Part shown: piece by piece, positions 11,201 to 25,735 of the stretch
Layout: each line of letters starts with the position of its first letter
Numbering within the stretch: position 1 is the stretch's first letter
DNA from: Bdellovibrio sp. 28-41-41
GTDB lineage: Bacteria > Bdellovibrionota > Bdellovibrionia > Bdellovibrionales > Bdellovibrionaceae
Direction: 5' to 3'
Assembly (NCBI GenBank): GCA_002256935.1
Contig: NCGL01000006.1
Span: 1 to 64,000 of the forward strand
DNA length: 64,000 nucleotides
The notes under the pieces: generated by a model
The model's database searches: none
What the model saw: the letters and a program-made list of their open reading frames with translations, nothing else
What the model was told of the DNA's origin: nothing
Made by a program: the position numbers and the translations under genes

Positions 11201-11241
11201 GTTTTATTCAAGAGCGAGAATCAGAAAATATAGTTGGTTGA
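8203..11241 (+). CDS. addA: AddA-like UvrD-family helicase with C-terminal nuclease domain
   Basis: The product has all UvrD/Rep motifs: Walker A AGAGAGKTT near residue 20, VDEFQDTSPIQ (Walker B), GDPQQSIYYFRGSD, NNYRSH, MTIHASKGLQFDHVVV and LLYVALTRAKKM. A RecB-type nuclease motif IDYKSG lies near residue 936. This is the AddA plan: an ATP-driven 3'-5' translocase plus nuclease acting on DNA ends with the AddB-like subunit. GGAGG at 8194-8198 sits five bases before ATG 8203, which I prefer to the in-frame ATG at 8191. The 3' end overlaps the convergent gene at 11221 by 21 bases. Its length (1012) is below the usual 1200 or so. Confidence 0.85.
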   Translation: MQSTPSVKNDNLKNVLIRAGAGAGKTTRLINEVYGFFQSHKKAHEVWPRVVLTTFSNKATQEINERLLKKAIETNDIEFFNFINAKANLLVSTIHGVLHLFIGQNQSEFGLTKDFTVVNDAEIARRQQKLFRKIVNEEPLAALLLDTFTLSELYSLVCDFRHFKLTMGSLQSLDRASFEAYLNTLRDEFVSEFRASVDVLRISKVTDAWTNALQGFPRVDADDQNIILNLLEWEDTLVRLPTVSKKGDEGLISSQARFVSAIKKLREYRDKNYHESFLDSFELLQTTFVVVAEAYFSAVDADQKESQEISISDIETLCFRVLETKPHLFEQFSKKWDFWMVDEFQDTSPIQITLLNQLIGKARVFYVGDPQQSIYYFRGSDSRVFEGKMIELKSSGQVEVLDNNYRSHSGVLGFINEFFSRQYTQFQKMVPIKEKISLRQDVNVFEIGDKAESAGLTAKQIAKLVHTHPEIKLEEVVVLSRTNRDLDTLAIELEALGIPHYVHSQGQFFKQREILDILFFVRFLIRPDDVNNLAFLLKTPSVGMNPDDVKIVTQNFKSWEQLISVSDKFNSKVISDLEKLNNYLKKSTELGLIETAQLFAVNEASFVLNHLVDSSGKKESNVWKCFYWMREELCKGLESFLVQLDGVLDPNKNDAFEESESQAIVEPKKIQMMTIHASKGLQFDHVVVIGMHSPQRTRGRYTLDVDTETKQFSIFVKNKDKDDKIRSPIYWRQSALQKEREAEEFERLLYVALTRAKKMVSLFTQNKFSDSSWSHQVKDFYSQYLMNKESMTFNMDWQNIDANSFVDESFLHSASATAITQDHNYREVLTPFLNQLSAKMSEVETRGPLSFSSSKGQRQATLHQVIISQKGIETHFRREKGFFDFSYYPSLPYGVELSKIFEKGLREYRFTFQFGQYQIVGSVDFVFFGTDRVLIIDYKSGRSVHTELYSKQLMFYAQCLSFIKKMSAEMKFDLVIDYVDQKKVDHITYLVEPAGPYFDSFIQERESENIVG

Positions 11242-12153
11242 AACAAAGTAGGCAGAACTATTGTCGTCGATAAGTCGAACTTCAACTTCTTCCTGATCAG
11301 GTGAAATGACTGTGCCGTAGCTTGTTTGACCAGCCGATACAGAGAACTGCTTGCTGATATTCCAAGATAACGTTTGCATATGAAAAAAAGAATCTTTTGC
11401 AGCACCAGCGTAATTCCATGAATTAATATGACGTAACTGAAGAGCCATACCGAACTGTTTGTATTCCCAGCCGGTAGAAACTTGCTGATTGGAAACATAC
11501 GACGTATTCGAAAAATTGTTGATCGCGACTTCATATTTATGAAAGTATTTTTGAACTGATACGCTGCCAGAGGTAGATAAAATCCCGCTGGCCAGTCGAG
11601 ATTGACTAGATAGCTTAGCACCTAAACCAACACCGAAATTTAGAAACTGGCGTTGAATTGAGTCTTTTGATAAAGGCACTGTTGACGTTAAGTATGGCGA
11701 CAGAGTCATGTTTGATAATTTACTTTTCATAAAATAGAAATTCATTAATAAATCGGAAACATCGTTTTGCAATTCATTCTTTGAGTATTGTGTATAGTTC
11801 AATAAGCCTTTAAAGCTAGAGTCTTCGTTGAATTTAATCGATGTTTCCGTATTTACACCTAGCGCACTTTGTTTTTTTTGAGCCGCGTTTAGCCCAAGAT
11901 TCAGTTGCCATGATTTGCTGGTTTGATCAAGATCATGAAACTTCAGACCACTAGATAGGTAATTTGTGGGTCTGTCGTCCACATACTTTTTTGTACGGAA
12001 TTTTTGAGTAATGGAGCTTGCGCTGCGCATGGGGGCTGCAGAGGCCAAGTGATTTAATAAAAAGGCGCTTAGGAAAATTAAGATCGCAAACGATAGAATG
12101 TCGCGAGCAAAAAATTCCCCTATTTCTGTGAGTTTTCTTTCAAGTATTTTCAT
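11221..12153 (-). CDS. Putative outer-membrane or secreted protein
   Basis: A 310-residue protein with a long hydrophobic segment at about residues 18-39 (a signal peptide with an extended basic n-region, cleaved near SAAP) and a C-terminus STNYIF ending in Phe. The mature part shows alternating polar and hydrophobic residues, consistent with a small beta barrel; I recognise no family. No Shine-Dalgarno sequence is visible before the ATG, but a perfect 13-bp palindrome (GCATAG-C-CTATGC, 12167-12179) lies 14 bases upstream and could be an operator. The last 21 bases overlap the addA-like gene tail to tail. Confidence 0.6.
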   Translation of the reverse strand: MKILERKLTEIGEFFARDILSFAILIFLSAFLLNHLASAAPMRSASSITQKFRTKKYVDDRPTNYLSSGLKFHDLDQTSKSWQLNLGLNAAQKKQSALGVNTETSIKFNEDSSFKGLLNYTQYSKNELQNDVSDLLMNFYFMKSKLSNMTLSPYLTSTVPLSKDSIQRQFLNFGVGLGAKLSSQSRLASGILSTSGSVSVQKYFHKYEVAINNFSNTSYVSNQQVSTGWEYKQFGMALQLRHINSWNYAGAAKDSFFHMQTLSWNISKQFSVSAGQTSYGTVISPDQEEVEVRLIDDNSSAYFVSTNYIF

Positions 12154-12637
12154 ACTTTATAAGGTTGCATAGCCTATGCCCATAGAGTCGTTTTAATGGG
12201 TTTTCAGGTCAAATATACAGGGAATAGGCCATTTTATGGGTGTAGAAAGTTAGACAGCTGTCGATAGTGGTTGAAACTAACCCGCTCGTTCTTTGGGCTC
12301 TTCTACTGCGGATGATGCTGGTGTAAAAATCAATATCGTGTTGGGACAGAAACGTTTTCAAAAGAATATTGGTAAAGAATCAGTTAATAAAAAATATTAA
12401 AAACAATTAATAAAAATTAGTTTGACAGAGAATTCGCATATTTAAAAGGGCTGCCTTAGCGTAATTTTATTTCTAACAAGAGGCGATCGATACGGATCTT
12501 TAAACGCTCACCAGCGGGCAGACTCGAGTGAATAGCCCTATTGTGTTCTCTTGTTCTATTTCTCTTCGCTATTTTTAAAAGCCCTCAAAATCATGATTTT
12601 AAAACCCATGGTATATCTCTTCTTCGCGAGGTAGACC
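12154..12637. other. Divergent intergenic region upstream of the HNH gene
   Basis: 484 bases between two divergent genes. It contains a palindrome at 12167-12179 near the left gene, an AT-rich tract at about 12360-12445, a perfect TTGACA hexamer at 12422-12427 with no convincing -10 box at the right distance, and the start-site hairpin at 12608-12639. No open frame of note was seen. Confidence 0.5.
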
Positions 12638-12639
12638 AT
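12608..12639 (+). promoter_or_regulatory. Hairpin covering the ribosome binding site and start codon of the HNH gene
   Basis: ATGGTATATCTC (12608-12619) pairs with GAGGTAGACCAT (12628-12639) around an 8-base loop: 12 positions with one A-G mismatch and one G-U pair. The 3' arm contains the Shine-Dalgarno GAGG (12628-12631) and the first two bases of the start ATG (12638-12640). In RNA this would hide the ribosome binding site, so translation of the endonuclease could be low or conditional. The structure is read directly; the regulatory role is inferred. Confidence 0.55.
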
Positions 12640-13597
12640 GACTTTAAAAAAACTAACGGATCAGAATTTAGATAAAAACTTAAAAGAGCTTGTTTCCGGC
12701 GAACGGGAAATATTAGCTGAAATTATTTTTCATATCATAGAGGTCGAGTGCAGAAAATTGTATTTGAAATTTGGTTATGCGAGTTTGTTTGAATATTTAA
12801 CTCAGCACATTGGTTATGCCAATGGCAGTGCTCAGAGGCGAATTGACGCTGCCCGGTTAGCGATAGTTGTTCCTAAAGTGGTCGGTGATTTAGAATCTGG
12901 AAACTTGAATCTGTCACAAGTTTCTTTGTTACAAAAAAGCATCCGAGCGGTTCAGTCGGATTCTAAAACCAAAGTCGATCAAAAAACGAAAGAGGATTTA
13001 GTGGATTTACTATCTAATAAATCCTTTGCAGAATCTGAAGTAGTAGTGGCTCAAGTTCTAGATATTACGCCCATGGAATCTACAAAAGTAACAAATCAAA
13101 GAGATGAGTCTGTAAGACTAGAAGTGACCTTAAGCAAATCTCAATGGGAAAAACTCCTAAAAATGAGAGAGCTTTTATCAAATACGATACCAGCTGGTAG
13201 TAACTGGGGCCAGGTGCTCGAGGGTGCGGCCGATAAAGTGATTATGCTAAAAGATAAGACCAAGGAAAATCAAAGGACGTCTGCCAAGTCGACAAGACAC
13301 ACGATATTTAAAAACCAAGACACTCAATCAAACGAAGGACGTGCAAAACCGCCCAAGCCAGCAAGGCAACATATTCCTATCTCTCTGCAGAGGAAAGTAT
13401 TTCAAAGAGATCAGTGCTGTCAGTACATGGACAAAGTTACAGGGAGAAAATGCGAATCGCGATGGCATCTGCAGATCGACCACATCCAGCCTGTATGGGC
13501 CAATGGTACCAACACTATGGAAAATCTAAGACTTCTCTGCGCCGGTCACAATCAACAGATCTACCGATGGCAGTCTAATATAACAAAACATCATTAA
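12638..13597 (+). CDS. HNH endonuclease, Bdellovibrio-type
   Basis: A 319-residue protein. The N-terminal half is helical (residues about 1-150) and resembles the DUF222-like front part of many stand-alone HNH proteins. A basic linker follows, then a C-terminal HNH nuclease: CCQYMDKVTGRKC, then LQIDHIQPVWANGTNTMENL, and LLCAGHN, giving the H-N-H metal site with paired cysteines. Such proteins cut or nick DNA; members of this type occur in many copies in Bdellovibrio genomes and some are thought to serve mobile DNA or prey-DNA turnover. The start is set by GAGG six bases before ATG, inside a hairpin. No restriction partner or methylase is nearby. Confidence 0.85.
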   Translation: MTLKKLTDQNLDKNLKELVSGEREILAEIIFHIIEVECRKLYLKFGYASLFEYLTQHIGYANGSAQRRIDAARLAIVVPKVVGDLESGNLNLSQVSLLQKSIRAVQSDSKTKVDQKTKEDLVDLLSNKSFAESEVVVAQVLDITPMESTKVTNQRDESVRLEVTLSKSQWEKLLKMRELLSNTIPAGSNWGQVLEGAADKVIMLKDKTKENQRTSAKSTRHTIFKNQDTQSNEGRAKPPKPARQHIPISLQRKVFQRDQCCQYMDKVTGRKCESRWHLQIDHIQPVWANGTNTMENLRLLCAGHNQQIYRWQSNITKHH

Positions 13598-13655
13598 AAT
13601 ACGTCCGGTGTCTGAATTTGCAATTCAGGGGTATTTATTCTATGAGCGCACTTAA

Positions 13656-13826
13656 GTGAAAAACTTAGATTGGATCCGGCAGCACCAGCAACTAGCTTTG
13701 ACCAAATCGGACCACCTGAAATAATGGCCATTCTTTCGCTTTAAATTTCGCGAGGAAAGGCGGAATTATTTAAGTAAACGTCTGGTCAAAAAAATTCAGG
13801 AAGCGAAAACGGCCTTCAGAAAATAA
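13656..13826 (+). pseudogene. Possible small gene remnant interrupted by one TAA
   Basis: From GTG 13656 one frame reads 22 codons, then TAA at 13722-13724, then 33 more codons to TAA at 13824-13826. The second part is very basic (WPFFRFKFREERRNYLSKRL...). No family is recognised. An open frame of this size with one stop could arise by chance, so this is only a suggestion of a decayed gene in the gap after the HNH gene. Confidence 0.2.
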
Positions 13827-13833
13827 GCAGGCT

Positions 13834-14565
13834 TTAATTTTCACTCATTCGGTACACGCGCTTAATTTCAGAGAAATGGGAGGGGCCAACGATACCTTTG
13901 CTTGCGCACATAATATCATTTTCCGCTAAAATGTAATAGACATAGGCCTGCTCAGACGAATCATAAAACTCAACATAACAGTCTGGAAATCCTAAAATAT
14001 GGCCGAATTCATGGGCCATTGTATCACTTACCGCTGATTTTTCGCCATTTATATCCCGCTCTTCGAAATTCAAAATAGTTTGCCCTACTTTGTCTAGCTT
14101 AAATACCGAAGTAAAGGCGTCGCTTATAACCAATTTTGGATCGTCATTGTTTTCAACATACCTAAGTGTTACTTTTTGCTGGCCATTACTCCAAGCCTTT
14201 TGGATCGCGGTTTCAAATAAATTTTTAAATTTTCCCAAGGATGACCCGACAAAAGGAACTTCTAAAATATATCCATTTTGAGTATTTTTAACTGAGAAAT
14301 TCTTTAATTTTTTCCTTTCATTTATTCTGAAAAAGGAGTTGTAGAGGTCTTCAGAATCAATTTTATAAATTTCAAATACTTCCGCTACCGATGCGTTATC
14401 ATTCTCGTAATCTGTAACTATTTGATCGCAACCGCGTCGTGTTTCTTTATTTTTACACATCCCAACTAAATCTTTCTTAATTGCGTCAGTAGATTTCGAT
14501 ATAAGTTTCTTAAAGGATTTTGGATGAGAATTCTTAATTTGTCTTAGCCTTAGGAAGCCTCGCAA
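13834..14565 (-). CDS. Metzincin-type metalloprotease domain (downstream half of a split gene)
   Basis: The C-terminal part holds a zinc protease site, AHEFGHILGFPDCY. Two histidines and the glutamate of HExxH are present and the third ligand position (HExxHxxGxxD) is Asp, as in snapalysin-like enzymes. A Met-turn (NDIMCASKG) follows about 30 residues later. So this should be an extracellular or periplasmic peptidase. This frame has no signal peptide. It could start at TTG 14565, but the frame stays open for 15 codons further upstream and then meets a single TAG, beyond which the same frame continues as a signal-peptide ORF. I think the two are one gene. Confidence 0.65.
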   Translation of the reverse strand: MRGFLRLRQIKNSHPKSFKKLISKSTDAIKKDLVGMCKNKETRRGCDQIVTDYENDNASVAEVFEIYKIDSEDLYNSFFRINERKKLKNFSVKNTQNGYILEVPFVGSSLGKFKNLFETAIQKAWSNGQQKVTLRYVENNDDPKLVISDAFTSVFKLDKVGQTILNFEERDINGEKSAVSDTMAHEFGHILGFPDCYVEFYDSSEQAYVYYILAENDIMCASKGIVGPSHFSEIKRVYRMSEN

Positions 14566-14610
14566 GTCGCGCCAGCTAAAATATTCTAAAATTTCCTGAT
14601 CTTCTTCTAG

Positions 14611-15048
14611 CTAAATTAATCTTGAGAGGGAAGATCCTAGTCGGTCAATTTTTCTCAAAAGAGGGATTTGATTTTTCAGAGTTTTATAAGTGCATTTAGA
14701 TAAATCGTTTCTTTCAATAACTCCCCCCAAATCACTATTGAGCGATCTAAAAATAGTATTGTAATCAGCCTGAATGATGCTCCAACTAACCTTAACTGGA
14801 TTATCAAATGTATACTGTTTTTTAGACGAGGGTAACTTAACCTCTAAAGAAATATTTATTTTACTATCTTTATTAGGGTCGTTCATTGCGATATCAATGC
14901 AGGTATCAGTTCTTTTCGTCAAATTCGAAATGCCATTTTTTAGAAAGGTTTTGTCAATATTTTCGTTGCGTATAGAATCATTCGAAGCGAATGTCGAAGC
15001 ACTGGCGATAGCAGTTAAAATTATAAAAACGTATTTAAACAATCTCAT
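14611..15048 (-). CDS. Secreted N-terminal part of the split protease gene
   Basis: With ATG 15048 (fourth codon of the open frame) the product has a clear signal peptide (MRLFKYVFIILTAIASASTFA) and a mature region of about 120 residues with two cysteines and no known motif. It ends at TAG 14611, and the frame then continues without a shift into the protease domain. I read it as the signal and propeptide part of that protease. If the TAG is real and not read through, it would be made as a small secreted protein of its own. Confidence 0.5.
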   Translation of the reverse strand: MRLFKYVFIILTAIASASTFASNDSIRNENIDKTFLKNGISNLTKRTDTCIDIAMNDPNKDSKINISLEVKLPSSKKQYTFDNPVKVSWSIIQADYNTIFRSLNSDLGGVIERNDLSKCTYKTLKNQIPLLRKIDRLGSSLSRLI

Positions 15049-15315
15049 CTCAGGCAAATTAGCATATCAAGAATCATTTTCTCCATGGATAATAAATGGT
15101 CACTATTTTTTACCCTGAACTTCTGAACAAGGTGTCCATTTATCCAATCCTTAAAACGAATTTAAGGTCATCTAACCTGAACTTTTCTAACCGCACCAAT
15201 GCGAAATAACCGCAAGGTTTCCCAACCAGCCCATCTATTCAATGAGTGCCATTATTCAAAGAGACTGTCGGTCTTGATCGAAACCAGACTTTCGACTCCG
15301 TAAGATTATATCAAC

Positions 15316-16284
15316 CTAACCACCATAGAAAGAAAGACACTGGCGAGGGTTTTTCTTCGTCGTCTTTTTACCTAGGTATTTCTCTTCGGCCGCTTTAATT
15401 GCGGCTCTATTCTCGACATAGTCGACGACGGCGTCGTTAAGCAAATTATATGATTGAGCATCCCTTAGAAACGGTGAGTTTTCTGTGTGGCGCATATAAG
15501 TTTGAACTACAGTCCAAGGATTCACGCTTGCAATTTGGCTAATTAAGGAAGGAGAACGGAGGTACGACACGGCAATGTCACGAGTATGGTCTCCGGAATT
15601 CCAATGATCCTTATCACCATTGTCGAGTTTAAATGGGCGACCAAATTCAAGAACTTCATTAACACCGCCATTGAGTTTGGCGTTCTTTATATGGTTTTTT
15701 CTGAAGCGATATAAATTTTCAAAGATTTGTCGATTCAGTAAATCGGCCATATGCTCGAATTGATACAGTTCTACTTTTAGTTGGGCGATCATTTCCACCG
15801 AAAGATTTTTATCTTTAGCGTAGTCATTTACGAGCTCATCAAGAAGACGATCGTCGATAATATTAATTTGCTTAAATGCATCTCTCAATTCAATCACTTC
15901 GCTTTCGCTCAAATCACCGGCTTCTTTGCTGATGTTTTTGCCAAAGGATTTTAAAACACGTTCACTTAATGGAGTAGAGTAGCCTTTTGGATAGTACTTC
16001 TCTACAAACTCAGGAGTGTGTGCAAATTTGGAAAGATCATGTTGAACCGCTCGGAGTTGAATTAGCTCTACGTGTGACATCAACAACGGAAAATGCTTTG
16101 CCTGTTCAGTCTTTTGTATACGCACTAAAAGAAACTTCATCGTGATGCCGACACCAATACTGTGCTCAACCATTTGCAATTCGAAATCAAAGAAATTTTT
16201 TGGGACCTGGCTAAAATGGGCATCTGCCTTAAAGTTAGACAGCAGGGCTACGATTAAAACTAGACACGACATGAGTTTGTTCAT
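15316..16284 (-). CDS. Secreted protein of unknown function with an HD-like motif
   Basis: Starting at ATG 16284 (eleventh codon of the open frame) gives a signal peptide (MNKLMSCLVLIVALLSNFKADA). The mature, mostly helical part contains VEHSIGVGI, then AVQHDLSKFAHTPEF, a spacing of H and HD residues reminiscent of DUF5662/HD-type metal sites, and later YMRHTEN. The reaction is unknown and the similarity is a weak impression. It is transcribed away from lon. Confidence 0.55.
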   Translation of the reverse strand: MNKLMSCLVLIVALLSNFKADAHFSQVPKNFFDFELQMVEHSIGVGITMKFLLVRIQKTEQAKHFPLLMSHVELIQLRAVQHDLSKFAHTPEFVEKYYPKGYSTPLSERVLKSFGKNISKEAGDLSESEVIELRDAFKQINIIDDRLLDELVNDYAKDKNLSVEMIAQLKVELYQFEHMADLLNRQIFENLYRFRKNHIKNAKLNGGVNEVLEFGRPFKLDNGDKDHWNSGDHTRDIAVSYLRSPSLISQIASVNPWTVVQTYMRHTENSPFLRDAQSYNLLNDAVVDYVENRAAIKAAEEKYLGKKTTKKNPRQCLSFYGG

Positions 16285-16403
16285 CGTATTTATACTCAGC
16301 AATGGAGCGGCCATAAACGGAAAAATTTACTTATGTTAGCCAAAACTTTTCTTGTCGGTCTGATTATCTATCTAGGTATTTCTTGCACGTATTTCCACCT
16401 CGC

Positions 16404-23407: not shown

Positions 23408-25735
23408 ATGGAAATCAGAATTGGACAGGGAAAAGATTTGATCAGAATAAAAGTTGTAATCGCTTTAGTTGTTGTATCTGTGCTGTTTATATCGATCATT
23501 TACAACAAATTTGAGCAGTCATTATTTGCCGATAAAGTAGAAAATGTGGAGCTTCAGATGAAGAACCAGATTTCTACCATGGTTACGGCGTATGAAGCTG
23601 AAGCTAAGTTTCTTACAAAAATGGCTCAAAATCTAAATATCGAAGGCAGTCGCCGTGTTAATTGGGCGAGCATGAGCCCGTATTTCGCATTGGCTTTGCT
23701 GAACGATAAAAATCAAATGGTAGAATGGTTATTCCGCGAAGCCTCGCCGGTTTCAGATTTGAGTAAAGAAACTCTGACTCAAGTTGTGCGTAGTTTTCAA
23801 ATCAATCCCCAATCGACTCAAATTTCCTATCAGTTTTTCCAAGATCAGGGAAAAAAACGATTGTTGCTTACGCTAGTTCCGCTGAAAGACAAAATGTGGG
23901 TTTTTGTCAGCCTAGGCGAGAATTTGCAAAGCTTGATGGACATGCAGAAAACGCAGAGTTCAGCACTGGCATTAGTGAATAAAGAACTTGTCAGCATGTC
24001 GCATGTAAAACCGGAATATGTCGGACAAAAAATATTTGAAAACACCGTGATCAAAGATTTGCGAGAAAATAATAAAACTTTGTCGACGGGGTCATTTTCC
24101 ATCACGAGCGGCGAAGAATTTTTTGCTGTGATGGAAAAAGTCCCAAACATGGATTTGTACCTCTACACTCAAACATCACTGTCAAATATTATTAAAAGCA
24201 AAGAAGAGTTTCGTCGGCAGTTTGCCTTTTTCTCGTTCGGGTTTTTATTTATTTTGATCGGCGTTTCATTTTTACTTGTGCCGATTGAAGCCGCGTCGCC
24301 AGCGGCGCCAAAGACGGTTCGTGGTGAAATTACCCAGAATTCATTCCCGAACCCGATCCCGCCGTCATCAAGTGAAGCTCAGTCGGCACGGGCGCCGACT
24401 GAGGTGTCTAAAGATCGCGTGCAAAATAATATGAGAATCGCGTCGGCTCTTGGCCACGAAATGAAAGCGCCGTTAGTGAAGATTTTGTCTTTGGTGCAGA
24501 TCGGAAATTTGGCCGAGTCTAAAGAAGAAACTTTGAAAATGATCAACAAGGTAAAATCAGAAGTACGATCAGCGAATGAAATCGTAGATAAACTTTTACT
24601 GTTTGCCGGTGAAAAAGAACAGAACAAGATTAAAACAAAAGTCGACACGCCGTTATTGCGAGCAGTTAAAAATCTAGAGGGCCTGTGCTACCAGAAGGTG
24701 GTTAAGGTTTCAAAAGAGATTGGCACTACGGAATCGTTTGATATGGATGTTAACCAGCTGGTCACTGTATTTGAAAATATAATTAAGAATTCCATTCAGG
24801 CCATGGACCGTAAAGGCAGCAAAGAAATTAAAATCAAAACCTACATGGAAAATGAAAAAGTTGTAGTTTTGATTGAAGATAATGGCGAAGGTATCCCTAA
24901 AGAAATTAGCGAAAAAATATTCGACCCATTCTTTACTTCGTTGAATGTTGGTCAGCATATGGGGTTGGGCTTAACCGTTGCGCTAGGAATCGTAAGGCAA
25001 CATAGCGGTGACGTGAAGGTGGATTCTGAACGAGGCAAAGGTGCCCGCGTGTTTATCGAGTTTGGACTCGAAGCCACCGAACAAGCGGACATTGTGAGTG
25101 CTCCTATTACTATCGCACCAGCGGCTCCGACGTTCGTGCAAGAGGAGCATGTGAAAGAATTGGTTTTGCACGCCGAGCCTCTGCCTTTAAAAGTGTCGGC
25201 TCCGAATCTTCACCTGCCGGTTGATGAAGCTGACGTTGTTGTTATCGACGATGATGAGGACGATATAGTTCGTGCTCCAGATAAATTAGAGCATACGCCG
25301 GCTCCGTTACCACCGCGGCCTATAGTTACTCAGCATTTGAATATTCCGAAAGTGAACGAAGACTTATTGTTAAGTATGGACGAAGATAAAAAGCCAGAGG
25401 GCGAAGCCGTTGCTGTTAATCACGCCGAAGACAATGAGATGTTCGAAGAATTGAATTTGTCTTCAAAACCGATCAGTATTAAACCAATCGATTTGAATGT
25501 TGATGTGGATGAGTTGTTTGAAGTATCAAATGAGACTCCTAAAACGCCGCAGGCACCGGTGTCTGCGGCCATTACAGTTCCTCCGGACATTGCAGATATT
25601 ATCCATGGGAAAAAGGAGGTTCAGAAAGAACCGCGACCTATTATTGTGCCGCCAAAACTGGCGAGTCATTCAAAAGTGGCGTTAGGTAGCGATAACTTTA
25701 AAGTAACAATTAGAAAACCTGGGAGGCCGATGTGA
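23408..25735 (+). CDS. Membrane sensor histidine kinase with long disordered C-terminal tail
   Basis: Order: N-terminal membrane segment (about residues 12-32), a periplasmic sensor region to about 275, a second membrane segment (FAFFSFGFLFILIGVSFLLV), then a HisKA dimer with H350 in GHEMKAPL and an HATPase domain (EDNGEGIPKEI, FDPFFTS, GLGLTVALG) ending near 555. The rest, about 218 residues, is rich in Pro, Val, Asp and Glu with no fold. The kinase should autophosphorylate on H350; there is no receiver in this protein. It overlaps the next gene by four bases and is divergent from nadB. Confidence 0.9.
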   Translation: MEIRIGQGKDLIRIKVVIALVVVSVLFISIIYNKFEQSLFADKVENVELQMKNQISTMVTAYEAEAKFLTKMAQNLNIEGSRRVNWASMSPYFALALLNDKNQMVEWLFREASPVSDLSKETLTQVVRSFQINPQSTQISYQFFQDQGKKRLLLTLVPLKDKMWVFVSLGENLQSLMDMQKTQSSALALVNKELVSMSHVKPEYVGQKIFENTVIKDLRENNKTLSTGSFSITSGEEFFAVMEKVPNMDLYLYTQTSLSNIIKSKEEFRRQFAFFSFGFLFILIGVSFLLVPIEAASPAAPKTVRGEITQNSFPNPIPPSSSEAQSARAPTEVSKDRVQNNMRIASALGHEMKAPLVKILSLVQIGNLAESKEETLKMINKVKSEVRSANEIVDKLLLFAGEKEQNKIKTKVDTPLLRAVKNLEGLCYQKVVKVSKEIGTTESFDMDVNQLVTVFENIIKNSIQAMDRKGSKEIKIKTYMENEKVVVLIEDNGEGIPKEISEKIFDPFFTSLNVGQHMGLGLTVALGIVRQHSGDVKVDSERGKGARVFIEFGLEATEQADIVSAPITIAPAAPTFVQEEHVKELVLHAEPLPLKVSAPNLHLPVDEADVVVIDDDEDDIVRAPDKLEHTPAPLPPRPIVTQHLNIPKVNEDLLLSMDEDKKPEGEAVAVNHAEDNEMFEELNLSSKPISIKPIDLNVDVDELFEVSNETPKTPQAPVSAAITVPPDIADIIHGKKEVQKEPRPIIVPPKLASHSKVALGSDNFKVTIRKPGRPM

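Follow-up and report, generated by a model that had tools for sequence, protein, structure and literature searches.

A predicted exported zinc metalloprotease gene of Bdellovibrio sp. 28-41-41 is interrupted in the assembly by a single in-frame TAG, and it is very probably a recent nonsense allele, that is, a young pseudogene, of a lineage-specific accessory protease gene. The gene lies on the minus strand of the window, meaning here the whole stretch of 64,000 nucleotides that was analysed. Until recently, its product would have been a single exported zinc metalloprotease, about 400 residues long, with a signal peptide, a helical N-terminal domain and a metzincin-like catalytic domain. The features are collected in Table 1.

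Table 1. Features of the interrupted protease gene and its surroundings in the window.
Feature	Position	Strand	Basis or remark
Lineage-specific island, ~3.05 kb	12263..15315		Not present at the syntenic locus in G004 or in G005
HNH endonuclease-like gene	12638..13597	+	The family matches this genome in 20 places
Repeat a	13722..13831		Adjoins the protease 3' end; also on C141, partly on C60
Secreted metzincin-like zinc metalloprotease gene (predicted), interrupted	13834..15048	-	Frame reading and homologues crossing the stop
Fragment 2: remaining helical domain and catalytic domain with HEFGHILGFPD	13834..14610	-	ORF listing, L033 model, structure match
In-frame TAG	14611..14613	-	Codon 146 from ATG 15048; residue 149 from TTG 15057
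Fragment 1: signal peptide plus initial portion of the helical N-terminal domain	14614..15048	-	ORF listing, homologue alignment, L033 model
Repeat b	15138..15239		Lies ~90 bases ahead of the protease start; further copies on C71 and C60

Counted from ATG 15048, the protease frame comprises 405 codons, including the internal TAG and the terminal TAA at 13834, and the TAG at 14613-14611 (cta on the plus strand) is its sole interruption. The upstream frame, ORF1, starts at ATG 15048 or at TTG 15057, nine bases earlier, ends at the TAG, and has a signal-peptide-like N-terminus, MRLFKYVFIILTAIASASTFA. ORF2 extends from TTG 14565 to the TAA at 13836-13834 and contains MAHEFGHILGFPDCYVEFYD. The two share one frame and are separated by exactly 15 sense codons (14610-14566), an arrangement already described in the earlier note, which was silent on the minus strand. 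Its statement that everything except the one stop is intact also agrees with the frame reading, with zero additional stops or frame changes in the 405 codons and the catalytic motif kept. The read-through sequence, with X at the TAG, has 407 residues from TTG 15057 and one internal stop, and served as the query for protein searches.

Of 99 related genomes, 32 (the own genome counted) contain homologues of this query at E <= 0.001, and the species-genome collection contains 23 homologous loci. The best homologue aligns with query residues 70-404 (E 3.2e-31) continuously across the TAG, and further alignments, spanning residues 62-404, 73-403 and others, are likewise unbroken over the stop. A set of 44 distinct homologues was compiled from the ORF around each match, after removal of two self loci, 7 duplicates and L030, an ORF at a contig edge whose genome has two matches; L108-L111, which contain no internal stop, and matches without a locus lie outside this set. 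Homologues clear of contig edges measure 382-489 codons from stop to stop. At the column of the TAG, 43 of the 44 homologues, mostly from Bdellovibrionota, carry a sense codon, the 44th being a contig-edge fragment. The comparison set beforehand as the one that could overturn the single-gene reading found 0/44 homologues that end at the equivalent position and then restart. Residues in the stop column vary among homologues, and the position itself is unconserved; it lies two residues past a near-invariant R-W pair (R-L in the window protein) and 15 before a near-invariant D-x-R-G. Family-conserved residues occur on both sides of the TAG, with R146 before it and D164, R166 and G167 after it. 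Flags reading '1 TAA' in L004, L008 and L031 were rejected as internal stops, the ORF ends showing that they are terminal. Since homologues align continuously through the stop and conserved residues flank it, ORF1 and ORF2 are, on this sequence comparison, one broken gene and not two, with an interruption beyond chance. The homologues thereby also support the earlier note's contention that a signal peptide and a catalytic domain on two separate products would make no sense.

The structural model of the intact homologue L033 (mean pLDDT 90.5, pTM 0.85) displays a long helical part that reaches to about residue 260 and, after it, an alpha/beta catalytic domain. The stop is equivalent to L033 residue 165, at the C-terminal end of modelled helix 142-166, and so does not coincide with a domain border; as modelled, it is inside the conserved helical domain, not between domains. 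Placed near the end of a conserved helix, the TAG would stop translation once the signal peptide and roughly half of the helical domain have been made. Fragment 1, the exported one, would be without the active site, whereas a product restarted beyond the stop would lack the signal peptide and possess the helical domain only in part. A true split gene, yielding two cooperating polypeptides of which one is exported, is extremely improbable: a candidate TTG start of ORF2, the first start after the TAG, lies 45 bases past it, but ORF2 is devoid of a signal peptide, TTG 14565 follows no clear ribosome-binding site, the cut falls within the conserved helical domain, and split homologues number 0/44.

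The window protein belongs, as a divergent member, to a secreted family whose catalytic domain is predicted to be metzincin-like (MMP-like), the homology at E 3.2e-31 spanning both the helical and the catalytic parts. With the Bdellovibrionota secreted family (L003-L054) it shares homology over residues ~60-404, HExxHxxGFPDCY followed by a conserved MC, two conserved cysteines and DxRG. It differs in its in-frame TAG, in an identity of at most ~25% over the alignment, and in missing about half of the near-invariant residues. The zinc motif HExxHxxGxxDCY is represented by H349, E350, G352, H353, D359, C360 and Y361, and the protein thus retains the catalytic motif together with the family residues D359, C360, Y361, M383 and C384. 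Family members have one uninterrupted ORF, and the TAG at 14613-14611 that breaks the window gene recurs in 0/44 homologues. No Pfam or NCBIfam model is matched above cut-off by the window protein or by the first member of A1, an alignment of 21 of the 23 species-genome loci from which two contig-edge loci were omitted. Models for M6, M7, astacin and snapalysin match only weakly, with the matches centred on the zinc motif. The likeness to Peptidase_M6 (PF05547) and to the TIGR03296 M6 domain is a weak local match around this motif, scoring 17.3 bits (curated cut-off 22) and 22.1 bits (curated cut-off 110.8), respectively; the first A1 member has no Pfam match and scores 17 of 110.8 bits against TIGR03296. 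The exported metzincin-like family as a whole is found mostly across Bdellovibrionota (L032-L054 and A1), likewise with no Pfam or NCBIfam model above cut-off.

Structural comparison points to the metzincins. Using VIA-align, L033 residues 261-416 match the catalytic domains of karilysin and MMPs, the best being karilysin chain 4in9_A with Z 11.3, 128 aligned residues and an rmsd of 3.1. The catalytic domain of L033 has a fold in common with karilysin (PDB 4in9), MMPs (e.g. 1cxv) and myroilysin (5zjk), at 12-18% identity, and the helical N-terminal part falls outside these matches. Foldseek on the same model ranks myroilysin first, with no E-value <= 0.001, and PDB sequence searches with the broken protein and with A1 return nothing below E 0.02. 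An aspartate at the third motif place, the conserved MC downstream and Z-scores of about 10-11 to metzincins suggest that the family is metzincin-like by fold and motif, and its members are presumably active proteases.

Functional amber readthrough or suppression, by which some ribosomes would pass the TAG and the complete protease would be secreted in small amounts, is highly unlikely. Apart from the TAG, the two halves are intact, and CTAG follows the stop, resembling a readthrough context of eukaryotes and viruses rather than of bacteria. However, RF1 is present above cut-off, the equivalent stop appears in 0/44 homologues, and TAG terminates 18 of the 52 largely non-overlapping window ORFs of 100 codons or more (17 of 51 without ORF1). 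ARAGORN typed 32 tRNA genes, none with a CTA anticodon, among 33 matches in the genome; the 33rd match is short and was not called as a tRNA, and the tRNA set of this 93.5% complete genome is incomplete, with no His-tRNA among those typed. The PylS profile scores no more than 33.9 bits, far short of its cut-off of 178, and 12 of 14 control genomes likewise match below cut-off. A stem-loop around the TAG, seen in the first fold, was rejected, its stability being no greater than that of shuffles: the 90 bases around the stop give a z of 0.86, with equal or greater stability in 162 of 200 shuffles. With E. coli reporters, one study (PMC11126739) measured readthrough at certain premature stops, strongest for TGA, then TAG and then TAA. 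In this 93.5% complete genome, no suppressor tRNA, PylS or RF1 loss was found, although a suppressor tRNA could lie in the missing part. Of the explanations proposed at the outset, amber readthrough therefore loses its footing, with no recoding machinery found, the suggested search for a suppressor tRNA negative among the 32 typed genes, and the stop unconserved. The nonsense allele gains from this negative search for recoding machinery and from the residue present at the stop column in 43/44 homologues.

It is also unlikely, though less so, that the TAG is a wrong base in the draft assembly or a minority variant in the consensus, the gene being intact in the organism. The assembly is a draft of 153 contigs, and just one stop codon breaks the frame. 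Against this, 14 window genes were compared with those of two same-genus genomes, G004 and G005 (6,170 codons aligned), and 13/13 testable neighbour genes end within one codon of their relatives, the 14th having run off the relatives' stretch. No other break is apparent in this region of the assembly. A stop in relatives of the gene at 23408 was rejected as a break, as it falls among the opening residues of the gene, probably ahead of its true start. Sequencing error, also raised at the outset, keeps some probability but is not favoured, the argument resting on these neighbours and their 13/13 agreeing ends. As a nonsense allele, the gene would carry a stop that is real in the cell and that would abolish function.

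The interrupted gene resides in an island specific to its lineage. G004 and G005 are colinear with the window genes from 2251 to 25735, and the spacing between their counterparts of the genes at 11221-12153 and 15316-16314 is about 132 and 131 bases, respectively, compared with about 3.16 kb in the window. On the left side, DNA similarity to these relatives ends near 12262. The island contains the HNH gene at 12638-13597 and the broken protease. At the DNA level, the five other same-genus genomes give only weak matches to the HNH gene, and no protease homologue was found in them. The absence of the island from G004 and G005 and the lack of a protease match in the five genomes indicate that the gene is lineage-specific. 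This could have arisen by gain here or loss elsewhere, gain being the simpler reading of the sequences. The gene at 15316-16314 beside the island, which has no Pfam match, is 53-55% identical to its G004 and G005 counterparts, and surrounding genes are 68-92% identical.

Searches for closer relatives extended beyond the genus. Counting the own genome, 16 of 66 family genomes have a match at E <= 1e-10 and 30 of 140 order genomes at E <= 1e-12; in both collections, no long match exceeds 29% identity, and one short match reaches 50% over 60 residues. No closer relative of the protease was found in plasmids and phages (tblastn) or in viral contigs, and PHROGs contains no match for it. Among the open-licence papers found on Bdellovibrio pseudogenes, proteases, HNH and metzincins and on stop readthrough, the protease family and the island are undescribed as far as titles and the starts of abstracts extend.

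The HNH gene belongs to a repeated unit that starts near 12397, about 240 bases upstream of the gene, and ends at about its stop codon. The gene (12638-13597; also L112-L121) has matches at 20 places in this genome, at up to 82% identity, with 0 to 4 per genome in the five other same-genus genomes; the copy at C13:68033-68256, just outside the window, has lost its middle. Repeats a and b recur on other contigs at 85% (C141), 84% (C71) and 83% (C60) identity. On C60 (L113 5496-5989), the counterparts of repeats a and b, 75% and 83% identical, stand in the same order as at the protease, enclose another, unlike short ORF whose N-terminus resembles a signal peptide, and lie about 0.5 kb from another HNH copy. 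The protease might accordingly be pictured as an exchangeable passenger of a small cassette, in which recombination linked to HNH would exchange genes for exported proteins between fixed upstream and downstream ends, a rather improbable scheme under which the TAG copy would be a passenger being discarded. The C60 pattern could also reflect chance neighbours in a repeat-rich genome, two cases being too few to decide.

The age of the nonsense allele can be gauged from the frame itself. Single-base changes that could make a stop in the protease gene number 185, and, with equal substitution rates, the probability of no further stop is 0.046 at 5% neutral divergence since inactivation; if the gene is a pseudogene, the lack of an extra stop thus suggests a young one. 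The window protein has a branch of 5.43 in the family tree, against a median end branch of 0.86, and keeps 33 of 62 near-invariant columns (3/10 before the stop, 30/52 after it), against a homologue median of 95%, the four homologues that touch a contig edge being omitted from this count. L028, L031 and L053 keep fewer such columns than the window protein. The window protein may represent a divergent subfamily with its own rules, or may have been weakly constrained before the stop arose. Long divergence with open frames suggests that the protease was under constraint for most of its history, and no close homologue suited to measuring selection was found in these searches.

As a nonsense allele, the gene would illustrate the ordinary decay of a dispensable accessory gene. 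Annotation of the locus calls for a single interrupted gene in place of a pair. The uncharacterised exported protease family to which it belongs, of which intact copies exist, could help the study of predatory bacteria.
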